From Acidobacteriota bacterium (GTDB lineage: Bacteria; Acidobacteriota; Terriglobia; Acidiferrales; UBA7541), in NCBI GenBank assembly GCA_018268785.1, contig JAFDVY010000006.1:1-64000 (forward strand): a DNA stretch of 64,000 nucleotides, read 5' to 3'. The position numbers and the translations under genes were made by a program. The notes beneath the pieces were generated by a model. The model saw only the letters and a program-made list of their open reading frames with translations, was not told the origin of the DNA and did not search any database. Shown piece by piece: positions 16,249 through 19,381 of this stretch. Each line of letters opens with the position of its first letter. Position 1 is the stretch's first letter.

Positions 16249-17310
16249 TCAATAACCGCGGCTGAGATCCACGACATTTTTCATGGACTGGCCGCTGAAC
16301 CAAAGTTCCAGCAGTTCAACGAGCAAGGCAGTTTCCCGCTGCCACAACCGGTTGCTCACTCCGCTCGTGTGTGGCGTAATGAACAAGTTCGGCGCTTTCC
16401 AGAGCGGAGAATTCTCGGGCAGAGGCTCGATGCCGGTCACGTCCAGCCCTGCGCCAGCCAAATGGCCGCTCTCTAGTGCCGCAATCAATGCGTCCTCATC
16501 CAGCAGCGACCCGCGGCCCACATTGATCAACCGTGCTCCGCGCTTCATTCGGGAAATTTCTGCCGCCCCCATCAACTTCTTTGTTCCGGCGGTTTCCGGC
16601 ACAGCGATCACAGCGTAGTCGGCCTCGGGCAAAACTGAGTGGAGCTCAGAACCGGCAACGATTTTTTCCGCAAGATCTCCATTACTTTGGCCGGAACGCG
16701 TTACGCCAAGCACGCGCATGTCGAAAGCTTTCGCCCGCTTCGCCAGTTCCTGGCCGATCGAACCGAATCCCACAATCAGCAATGTTTTGCCGCTGAGCTC
16801 GCTCAATTGCTGCGGCAAATCCCAAAGCTGTTGTTGGCTCCACTTTGCCTGATCCTGAAACCGGATCGAGTCCGGAAAATTCCGCGCCATTGCAATCATC
16901 ATTCCCAATGTGTGCTCTGCCACTGGCACGGAAAAAACACCGCGGGGATTGGTCACCAGGATTCCTGACTCGCGCAATTCGGGATACATCAACTGCGCCA
17001 CGCCGGTCGCTGTCGAATGAATCCATTTCAGTTTTCTCGCGTGCGTCAGTTGATCTGCACGCAGTGAATATCCGACAAAAATGTCGGTATCCGGCAATTC
17101 GGGCGGGAGCACGTCGTAGTTCGGCAAATGCACCACCCGCATTTCCGGCCACTTCGCCCGTAGCGTTTCCGCCATCGCTGGATCCGGCCGCCAAAACCGG
17201 AACGGGTGCCAGACACAAATCACCAATTTCGTCTCGCTCGGCTTAGTTCGTTTCATTCTTGTCTGAAGTTCCTGAGTGTTTCTTCGCACGCGAGAATCCA
17301 CTCCTTGCAA
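16249..17310 (-). CDS. D-2-hydroxyacid dehydrogenase
   Basis: This 353-aa NAD(P)-dependent oxidoreductase is of the D-isomer 2-hydroxyacid family. The nucleotide-binding motif is LIVGFGSIGQELAKRAKAFD. The catalytic Arg is in NVGRGSLLDED, the Glu in VTGIEPLPENSP and the His in ITPHTSG. The N-terminal substrate domain (VICVWHPFRFWRPDPAMAE) resembles glyoxylate/hydroxypyruvate reductase relatives. There is no ACT domain, unlike serA at 2323. The exact substrate cannot be told from sequence. An internal ATG at residue 19 (17256) is a plausible alternative start, since the first 18 residues look atypical. The gene is convergent with the VWA gene, with 3 nt between the two reading frames. Confidence 0.9.
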   Translation of the reverse strand: MQGVDSRVRRNTQELQTRMKRTKPSETKLVICVWHPFRFWRPDPAMAETLRAKWPEMRVVHLPNYDVLPPELPDTDIFVGYSLRADQLTHARKLKWIHSTATGVAQLMYPELRESGILVTNPRGVFSVPVAEHTLGMMIAMARNFPDSIRFQDQAKWSQQQLWDLPQQLSELSGKTLLIVGFGSIGQELAKRAKAFDMRVLGVTRSGQSNGDLAEKIVAGSELHSVLPEADYAVIAVPETAGTKKLMGAAEISRMKRGARLINVGRGSLLDEDALIAALESGHLAGAGLDVTGIEPLPENSPLWKAPNLFITPHTSGVSNRLWQRETALLVELLELWFSGQSMKNVVDLSRGY

Positions 17311-17349: not shown

Positions 17350-17697
17350 TTACATTGAGGTCCTTCGGCTATCTTCCTGGATAGCCTCAGGATGACACCT
17401 GTTTTGCGGTGCGCGACACCAATCTGCTGCCAGATCGTTCCATCCATGGTTTGTCTTTTCGACTAGTGTCACTTTCCTTGAACGCAGCCAGCCTTTAATC
17501 TGCTTTTCTCGAGTGATGGCTTCTCGAATGTCGCAGTACTCTTCAAAATAGACCAGCTTGAATAGGTTGTACTGAGCCGTATAACCGGGGATCAGCTTCT
17601 TTTTGTGCTGAGCGACGCGATATTGCAGATTGTTGGTAACTCCAACGTATAGCATCTTGGCTTCGTTGCTCATGAAGTAGACGTGATAAGTCTTCAT
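17350..17697 (-). CDS. Small GIY-YIG nuclease, flanked by inverted REP-like repeats
   Basis: From the ATG at 17697 this encodes 115 aa. The single GIY-YIG domain shows VYF and YVG as the two half-motifs (MKTYHVYFMS and MLYVGVTNNLQYRV), the conserved Arg, and the catalytic Glu region VYFEEYCDIREAITREKQIK. The ending GWLRSRKVTLVEKTNHGW, NDLAADW is typical of stand-alone members (COG2827 type). The family are metal-dependent nucleases; the role of these short forms is not settled. The last 15 residues, CHPEAIQEDSRRTSM, are encoded by the left repeat itself, so the gene reads into the repeat. The second, inverted repeat lies 43 nt upstream of the start. This layout suggests gene and repeats form one unit. 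Confidence 0.87.
   Translation of the reverse strand: MKTYHVYFMSNEAKMLYVGVTNNLQYRVAQHKKKLIPGYTAQYNLFKLVYFEEYCDIREAITREKQIKGWLRSRKVTLVEKTNHGWNDLAADWCRAPQNRCHPEAIQEDSRRTSM
17356..17396. repeat. REP-like hairpin repeat, left copy
   Basis: This 41-nt element begins TGAGGTCCTTCGG and ends GCCTCAGGATGAC. Its centre is a stem GGCTATC/GATAGCC around TTCCTG. It overlaps the 3' end of the GIY-YIG gene. It matches the right copy in inverted orientation at 38 of 41 positions by eye. Confidence 0.85.
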
Positions 17698-17739
17698 GGG
17701 CAGTCTCGCTTTCAAAGCAATCTACAAACCATGGGCGTT

Positions 17740-17780
17740 GTCATCCTGAGGCCATCCAAGAAGATGGCCGAAGGACCTCA
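17740..17780. repeat. REP-like hairpin repeat, right inverted copy
   Basis: This is the inverted partner of 17356-17396. Its stem reads GGCCATC/GATGGCC. Compared with the left copy, both stem partners changed together, so pairing is preserved. The third difference is in the loop. Confidence 0.85.
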
Positions 17781-17821: not shown

Positions 17822-19381
17822 TCAACTAAAGATTCTGAGATCTTGCCCGCTCATCTCTCCCGGCGACTTTTCGCCTATAACTCCAAGCAGCGTTGGCGCG
17901 ATGTCTCGCAACGCCCCTCCCTGCCGCAATTTCAGCTTGTCGTCTTCCGTCACCAGCACAAACGGCACGGGATTCGTCGTGTGGTACGTGTGCGGCCCGC
18001 CCGTTTTCGGATCAATCATCGTCTCTGCGTTTCCGTGATCCGCCGTAATAATCCAAGCGCCCCCGCGCGGCTTCAGTGTCTTGTAAATCTCTCCAAGCCC
18101 CGCGTCCACCGCTTCCACGGCCTTGATCGCTGCTTCCAGCTTTCCCGAATGTCCCACCATGTCCGCGTTCGCGTAATTCATGATGATCGCGTCGAATTCG
18201 CCCTTCTCAATCGCCTTCACCACCGTGTCCGTAATTCCCTGCGCGGACATCTCCGGCTTCAAATCGTACGTCGCCACCTTCGGCGAAGGCACCAAAATCC
18301 GCTCTTCCCCCGCAAACGGTTGCTCCACGCCGCCATTGAAAAAATAAGTCACGTGCGCGTACTTCTCCGTCTCCGCTGTCCGCAAATTTTTGTAATTCAA
18401 CCCCGCGAACACCTGCGCCAGAATATGTTCCAGTTTTTCCGGCTTGATCACCGACTGCAGCCACGGCCAGTTCTTGTCGTACTGCGTCATCGCCACGTAA
18501 AAAAGGTTCTTCGGCCGCTTGGCATCCGCAAACTTGTCGAAGCCCGGCGCTGCCAGCGCAAACGTCATCTGCCGTGCGCGATCCGCCCGGAAATTGTAGA
18601 AAATCACAGCGTCGTCATCGTGAATCAACCCAACCGGTGCAGCCGAGGCCCCCTCGCCCTTCGTGATCACCACCGGCTTCACAAACTCATCCGTCACGCC
18701 GGCTTCATAGCTCTTCGCCAGCGCCGCAACCGGATCGCTCGACTTCGACTCCGCTTCCCCATGCACCAGCGCGCGATATGCCAGCTCGATGCGCTCCCAG
18801 CGGTTGTCGCGATCCATCGCGTAGTATCGACCCACTACCGTCGCAATTTCTCCGATGCCTAGCTCGCGCATCTTCTGTTGCAATCGCTGCACAAACTGTT
18901 TCCCGCTGTGCGGAGGCGTGTCGCGTCCGTCCATGAAGCAGTGCACGAAAACCTTTTCCACGTGATGTCGTTTTGCCATCTCGAGCAACGCAAACAAATG
19001 TTCAATATGCGAGTGCACGCCGCCGTCGCTCAACAATCCCAGAAAATGCAGTTGTCGCGTGCGCCCGCGCTCCATCGCTTGACGGAACAGCGGCACTTCA
19101 TCGAGTTGTTTGTTCGCAACGAGCACGTCGATTTTCGTGATGTCCATCCGCACTACGCGCCCCGCGCCGATGTTCATGTGCCCGACTTCGCTGTTTCCCA
19201 TCTGCCCTTCCGGCAACCCCACCGCCGGCCCGGACGTGCTTATCAATGTGTTTGGAAATTTGCGTAACAACTCGTCATACGCCGGCTTCTTGGCCAGCGC
19301 AATCGCGTTCCCTTCCGTCTCCGCGCGGTATCCCCATCCATCCAGCACGGTCAGCACAATCGGTTTCGGTCGTTTTGCCAT
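17822..19381 (-). CDS. gpmI: 2,3-bisphosphoglycerate-independent phosphoglycerate mutase
   Basis: This 519-aa enzyme interconverts 3- and 2-phosphoglycerate through a phosphoserine intermediate, using two Mn2+ ions. Alkaline-phosphatase-superfamily signatures are clear: the metal-binding Asp in [11 protein letters not shown], the catalytic Ser in [17 protein letters not shown] (about S72), [11 protein letters not shown], and the metal ligands in [12 protein letters not shown] and ITADHGNAE near the C-terminus. The length is normal. The ATG at 19381 gives the conserved N-terminus [19 protein letters not shown]. It works between serA/glycolysis and enolase (30415), although these genes are not linked in one operon. 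The right REP copy lies just 3' of the stop. Confidence 0.96.

Follow-up and report, generated by a model that had tools for sequence, protein, structure and literature searches.

Small GIY-YIG nuclease genes bracketed by GTC-tagged palindromes as a candidate repeat-enzyme unit in bacteria

Introduction

In the window (the whole stretch of DNA analyzed here, 64,000 nucleotides of an Acidobacteriota genome), a gene for a small GIY-YIG protein sits between two inverted copies of a hairpin-forming repeat. Do gene and repeats form one unit, and could the nuclease be what spreads the repeats? A sequence-only reading of the window had suggested as much: a relationship like that of RAYTs and REPs, with a different enzyme, in a self-contained, repeat-propagating unit.

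The survey by Di Nocera et al. 2013 (PMC3733652) sorts REPs into two groups. GTAG repeats go with RAYTs, whereas CGTC repeats, whose tag may also read TGTC or CCTC, “apparently lack a dedicated transposase”. The CGTC-tagged superfamily includes Neisseria dRS3 and Rickettsia RPE-4 and RPE-6. The term GIY has 0 occurrences in the text of that survey. Searches of open-access papers showed none that links GIY-YIG proteins with REPs; in the one paper where “GIY-YIG” and “extragenic palindrom” co-occur, they stand unlinked in a gene table and a reference. A GIY-YIG partner would be a concrete candidate for how GTC-tagged repeats spread, a point that the 2013 survey left open.

Results

The GIY-YIG gene of the window lies between two copies of one hairpin repeat

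The locus contains the following features.

17356 to 17397, reverse strand: downstream repeat with TGTC tag, stem of 4 bp plus 7 bp and tail CCTCA; codes for the last 15 residues of the ORF
17739 to 17780, forward strand: upstream repeat, an inverted copy with 3 differences and one compensated stem pair
17350 to 17697, reverse strand: GIY-YIG nuclease gene, 115 aa, ATG start
17356 to 17780, no strand assigned: whole unit (repeat, GIY-YIG gene, repeat), 425 bp
16249 to 17310, reverse strand: neighboring 2-hydroxyacid dehydrogenase-like ORF, named by eye
17822 to 19381, reverse strand: neighboring phosphoglycerate mutase-like ORF, named by eye

The inverted hairpin repeats that the sequence-only reading had described around the gene were borne out, with arms of 42 nt each that are 93% complementary and spaced 341 nt. 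Searching the window with up to 3 mismatches returned exactly these two arms (expected 0, from 100 dinucleotide shuffles). Two of the 3 differences between the arms, T/C and A/G, fall on the two partners of one stem pair (T-A versus C-G), so the hairpin is kept by compensation, as had been claimed; the third, G/A, lies in the loop. Each copy folds into a hairpin (z −3.8 and −2.7), with the layout TGTC, 4-bp stem, small internal loop, 7-bp stem, 6-nt loop and CCTCA. An Rfam search of the repeat gave no match with E up to 1. The gene does enter the left repeat, from which its residues 101-115 are coded. In congeners of the window's genome, the 2-hydroxyacid dehydrogenase-like ORF nearly abuts the next gene.

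The product of the ORF is a GIY-YIG protein (Pfam PF01541, E 1.5e-15), and the Pfam score of T5orf172 for it is just below the cut-off of that family. Seven residues do not vary in an alignment of 35 relatives: Y7, Y17, G19, R27, H31, E64 and N83. The catalytic residues of GIY-YIG enzymes lie among Y7, Y17, G19, R27, E64 and N83 and are intact. An AlphaFold2 model had a mean pLDDT of 85, with about 95 over the domain and less than 50 over residues 96-109, a stretch that includes most of the repeat-encoded end. Among solved structures, the fold comes closest to UPF0213 protein BH0048 (1zg2, E 2.2e-4), followed by Slx1 (6seh); the sequence similarity of 1zg2 to the window protein is weak (E 0.17). 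Going by the titles of its structure entries, Slx1 is a branched-DNA nuclease, and since it cuts branched DNA, the resemblance would suit a hairpin or cruciform as target. With the UPF0213 / YhbQ-like and Slx1-like nucleases the window protein shares a single GIY-YIG domain; it differs from them in its weak sequence similarity and in the pairing with repeats, which is a new property of the unit.

Similar C-terminal peptides (e.g., DSSLRSE) were also seen at seven loci from distant phyla (L027, L056, L064, L072, L076, L098 and L104), where the ORF appears to enter the downstream repeat as well.

The repeat is dispersed in the same genome

Counting copies genome-wide revealed that the repeat is not unique to this locus: the pattern GTCATCCTGAG-N4..30-GAAGGA has 14 copies in the draft genome (4.24 Mb, 316 contigs), and the reversed pattern has 0 in the same 4.24 Mb. 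Eight of the copies share the hairpin type of the window. In these eight, 88 of 88 pair cells hold standard pairs and 3 pairs are changed on both sides; the first A of the stem faces C, and only the T pairs. The window copies start with TGTC, and one of the eight starts with CGTC.

The genome also carries nine Y1 transposase loci. Three of them (L020, L021 and L024) are flanked by inverted TGTAG palindromes, and GTCATCCTGAG occurs at 0 of the 9. Two unrelated repeat-enzyme pairs coexist in the genome of the window.

GIY-YIG genes are specifically paired with tagged palindromes across many phyla

A scan of GTDB, with one genome per species, yielded 79 loci with close relatives of the window protein in many phyla. 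The repeat-encoded peptide CHPEAIQE was one of six patterns in this first scan, a bias that was later removed. Palindromes were detected within 300 bp of the gene by a [CT]GTC tag and a stem rooted in A[TC] and its complement, and loci with too little flank were dropped (8 of 79 for GTDB, 6 of 35 for IMG/VR, 3 of 29 for Y1). By this detector, 70 of 71 GTDB loci have a palindrome on at least one side and 49 of 71 on both. For sham genes placed 900 bp away, both sides scored in 1 of 69 and 0 of 72 cases, and reversed, complemented and altered tags gave background counts. All 50 loci found by tail-independent matches have a palindrome on at least one side. Up to 250 bp from the gene, repeat density reaches 40.6 per 10 kb, and beyond 750 bp it is 0 to 1.3 per 10 kb. 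In a control restricted to intergenic DNA, the densities are 7.9 versus 0.80 per kb. GTAG palindromes around GIY-YIG genes stay at background level. Flanks of the kind seen in the window thus recur at other GIY-YIG genes, as the sequence-only reading had raised for checking: repeats on both sides were found at 56 of 76 GIY-YIG genes, and the figures for other genes, other small genes and Y1 transposase loci are 11 of 146, 3 of 49 and 0 of 26. The same reading had named two results that would weaken it, a repeat confined to this locus or one equally common beside unrelated genes, and neither occurred; the RAYT/REP-like relationship with a different enzyme is supported.

Within the window's phylum, 149 genomes were searched with the domain alone. 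Strong GIY-YIG loci there have a palindrome on at least one side in 24 of 25 cases and on both sides in 21 of 25; two weaker matches left out of the 25 (L208 and L209) have no repeats within 300 bp, and the former count becomes 24 of 27 when they are included. A further 11 weak matches have a palindrome on neither side (0 of 11) and are taken as members of other GIY families.

The pairing extends to viral and plasmid collections. On IMG/VR contigs, palindromes are present on at least one side in 26 of 29 loci and on both in 21 of 29, numbers that include near-identical orthologues and so do not count 29 independent events; the hairpins differ widely and the tag is the same. From the plasmid collection, 16 of 35 records were picked by hand for variety, of which 11 have [CT]GTC palindromes on a side and a further 4 a CCTC-tagged form or a G-rooted stem within 400 bp, giving 15 of 16. 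The one record of these 16 without a repeat near the gene is from Sphingomonas paeninsulae; its GIY-YIG gene sits between rnc and era and may be a fixed or relic copy. One other close GIY-YIG gene (G012, contig C140) also has no repeat. In a congener, G154, contig C15 carries a further GIY-YIG domain (L257) without repeats near the gene, apparently of another subfamily.

The GIY-YIG locus of Neisseria gonorrhoeae sits in a cluster of CGTCATTCCCGC..GCGGGAAT repeats. The core sequence of dRS3 and the description by Di Nocera et al. identify these as dRS3-type.

Each enzyme lineage carries its own repeat type

On a tree of 118 proteins, of which few branches are well supported, repeat class changes 15 times versus 28.1 times after shuffling (0 of 200 shuffles as low), and the long-stem class 2 times versus 11.5. 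Host phylum clusters on the enzyme tree too (25 versus 33.1 changes), and within the window's phylum alone repeat type is weakly clustered (7 versus 9.4, 102 of 2000 as low); phylogenetic confounding is therefore only partly removed. Stronger evidence comes from single genomes with two enzyme-repeat pairs. In the congeners G154 and G157, CGTCATTTCGAG repeats accompany one GIY-YIG lineage and TGTCATTCCGAAC repeats a second, and on pSymB of S. meliloti Ak57 one lineage goes with CCTCATTCCTGTG and another with CGTCATCCTCGGG repeats. The GIY-YIG protein of G120, a genome from the window's phylum, has Neisseria, Photobacterium and Azospirillum proteins as its nearest rows in the tree, and its gene is flanked by dRS3-type repeats, with 21 copies in the genome. 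Only 2 of 149 genomes are rich in this type, G120 and G143 (32 copies, without a small GIY-YIG gene). In all three sets, the left repeat of a locus resembles its own right repeat more closely than it does shuffled ones (0 of 2000 for each set).

At two IMG/VR loci (L289 and L304), the left flanks share the end of the same neighboring gene, yet the units have different repeat types; the site is possibly an insertion hot spot.

Gene and repeats behave as a unit that is present or absent between relatives

The outer ends of the nearest repeats lie a median of 442 bp apart (middle half 408-483, n = 86). Three paralogous units in G139 match from about one outer repeat end to the other and are unmatched in their flanks (for example, a match over 1367-1844 with the repeat starting at about 1369). 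In a deltaproteobacterial MAG, two units match over 584 bp, a stretch that takes in both repeats and reaches about 20-55 bp past them.

In 14 congeneric loci, the spacer that holds the unit in the window contains neither the gene nor a repeat of the window's type; 9 of the 14 are in the spacer alignment, and the detector's two weak hits are coding or unrelated sequence. Azospirillum lipoferum 4B carries the unit where it separates sufB from sufC, flanked by two repeats at either end; the corresponding sites of A. ramasamyi, A. oryzae, strain B510 and A. thermophilum (90-96% identical) lack both the gene and the repeats. With no repeat at the vacant sites of Azospirillum and of the window's congeners, homing into a repeat already present is not seen there, which speaks against it as the sole route. 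Together with the paralogous matches from outer end to outer end, the sites without the unit support the earlier idea of a self-contained unit. In Sphingobium, the gene is on 7 plasmids; where the gene is missing from this site, TomTYG64 and TomTYG74 show one chimeric palindrome that joins the outer half of one flanking repeat to that of the other, and in TomTYG72 and TomTYG65 there is neither palindrome nor gene.

Smaller changes were seen among the IMG/VR loci. Of the orthologous loci L280 and L284, one lacks a repeat dimer that lies next to the gene in the other, a difference that deletion through a short repeat explains as well as insertion does. At L312, this dimer shares 97% identity with the one on the opposite side of the gene, and between L283 and L289 the unit is in opposite orientation relative to the same neighbors. 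No clean target-site duplication was found: the window's relatives are too diverged, and the CACCG repeat seen where one dimer is polymorphic may equally be the scar of a deletion. The G154/G157 site is too rearranged for a junction.

Genomes with the gene are richer in repeats

Of 19 genomes with a strong GIY-YIG match, 12 have at least 10 repeats of the window's class; of 130 genomes that lack such a match, 5 do (P = 1.5e-9). When genomes are divided by Y1 transposases instead, the numbers are 15 of 94 with and 2 of 55 without (P = 0.03). Matches to GIY-YIG at any strength are patchy (34 of 149 genomes).

Six genomes are repeat-rich and have no small close GIY-YIG gene (G078, G005, G094, G143, G023 and G062, with 350, 101, 49, 32, 19 and 13 copies); their GIY-YIG genes are of UvrC length only, or none is both close and small. 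Loss of the enzyme after the repeats had spread would be an easy explanation, and another enzyme is possible as well. In view of such genomes, the “repeat-propagating” part of the earlier proposal is still an inference.

The repeats resemble CGTC-tagged REPs in their tag

The repeats studied here share several features with the CGTC REP superfamily: the tag (C/TGTC or CCTC) is unpaired, the stem is rooted in AT, dimers are formed and copies are many. GIY-YIG genes of Neisseria gonorrhoeae, Azospirillum lipoferum, Novosphingobium aromaticivorans and Sinorhizobium meliloti, all species or genera named in PMC3733652, are flanked by CGTC-type repeats. The repeat of the window has one of the unpaired terminal tags of the superfamily (CGTC, TGTC or CCTC). 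Its first two stem positions lack the complementary AT of the superfamily, which the Azospirillum and Neisseria loci have. Where superfamily stems are 8-9 bp with loops of 4-5 nt, the window repeat has 4 plus 7 bp, an internal loop and a 6-nt loop. The unpaired tail of the superfamily is mostly CCA; in the window repeat, CCTCA follows the stem. Because the window repeat shares the tag and not the stem length, loop length or first pair, we do not file it in the four published families.

The REPtron (a RAYT with its GTAG REPs) is alike in having a small enzyme gene between REP palindromes that are also dispersed, a repeat matched to its enzyme, and solo non-autonomous copies. It differs in its HUH/Y1 transposase, to which the GIY-YIG fold is unrelated, and in its GTAG tag, which is unrelated to the GTC tag (TGTC in the window).

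Discussion

We consider it probable that the unit is a minimal mobile module, consisting of a single-domain GIY-YIG nuclease between GTC-tagged (CGTC, TGTC or CCTC) palindromes and spread by repair-coupled copying. The nuclease would recognize the hairpin or cruciform of the repeat, probably when the DNA is single-stranded at the fork, and would cut at or beside the GTC tag, after which host repair may copy the repeat, a repeat dimer or the whole unit to other places. Solo repeats would then be non-autonomous copies. GIY-YIG chemistry is hydrolytic and keeps no covalent intermediate, so the enzyme alone would be unable to join DNA; for this reason we prefer a repair-coupled, homing-like spread over covalent strand transfer of the RAYT type. 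Against this reading we count the six repeat-rich genomes without the gene, the close GIY-YIG genes without a repeat, the lack of a clean target-site duplication, the repeat-free vacant sites of Azospirillum and of the window's congeners, the host-phylum clustering, the weak clustering of repeat type inside the window's phylum, the hydrolytic chemistry and the departures of the window repeat from the published CGTC definition.

The gene could instead be a selfish homing-type endonuclease that cuts solo repeats spread by something else and is copied into them, and does not propagate them. The GIY-YIG fold is classical among homing nucleases, some repeat-rich genomes lack the gene, and the palindrome at the gene-free site of TomTYG64 and TomTYG74 also fits such a history, with none in TomTYG72 and TomTYG65. 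Like free-standing GIY-YIG homing genes, the unit has the GIY-YIG domain, is mobile and has unoccupied sites in relatives; unlike them, it is bracketed by its own inverted repeats, which are also dispersed solo. The repeat-free unoccupied sites of Azospirillum and of the window's congeners, a repeat type that tracks enzyme lineage even within one replicon, and the finding of no other enzyme tied to the repeats (Y1 transposases included) make this account unlikely in our view. We regard it as quite improbable that the nuclease is a host-serving resolvase, which would clear cruciforms formed by the repeats and lie next to them for regulation, with no role in their spread. Its Slx1-like fold and the stable hairpins would be in keeping with that task, but patchy presence, insertions inside operons such as sufB-sufC and several diverged copies within one genome are not.

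There is very little to recommend the view that RAYT-type (Y1) transposases move the repeats and that GIY-YIG genes are cargo. The genome-level link to Y1 is weak, the motif is within 600 bp of 0 of 29 Y1 loci and on both sides of none of 26, and of the nine Y1 loci of the window's own genome three have inverted TGTAG repeats and none has GTCATCCTGAG; Di Nocera et al. 2013 (PMC3733652) likewise found no tyrosine transposase flanked by CGTC repeats. On the 600-bp search and the own-genome loci we reject RAYT as the partner. A reading of the hairpins as terminators of transcription, or as repeats that surround an ordinary small gene by chance, would agree with their folding and intergenic position and is nonetheless close to negligible: on both sides of the gene, phyla share the tag and the base of the stem, altered tags fall to background, and compensatory changes keep the hairpin. 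On the tag controls and sham positions we reject chance or terminator hairpins.

Returning to the module of nuclease and palindromes, the GIY-YIG enzyme is at present the strongest candidate for the partner enzyme that has been lacking for a widespread bacterial repeat class. About a wider claim our belief and our doubt are evenly balanced, namely that single-domain GIY-YIG proteins are the dedicated enzymes of the GTC-tagged superfamily (CGTC, TGTC and CCTC, dRS3-type included) and make up a second, independent REP-propagating class in many phyla, spreading both the repeats and themselves through hairpin cutting and host repair. If true, GIY-YIG nucleases, known for homing and repair, would be the engine of a REP-type element, and part of the anonymous “GIY-YIG nuclease family protein” genes would be explained. 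The pairs of enzyme lineage and repeat type provide a ready data set on specificity.

On plasmid p1 of Planktothrix agardhii (L217), a unit with repeat clusters on both sides lies between a type IIL restriction-modification gene and the DISARM gene drmA.
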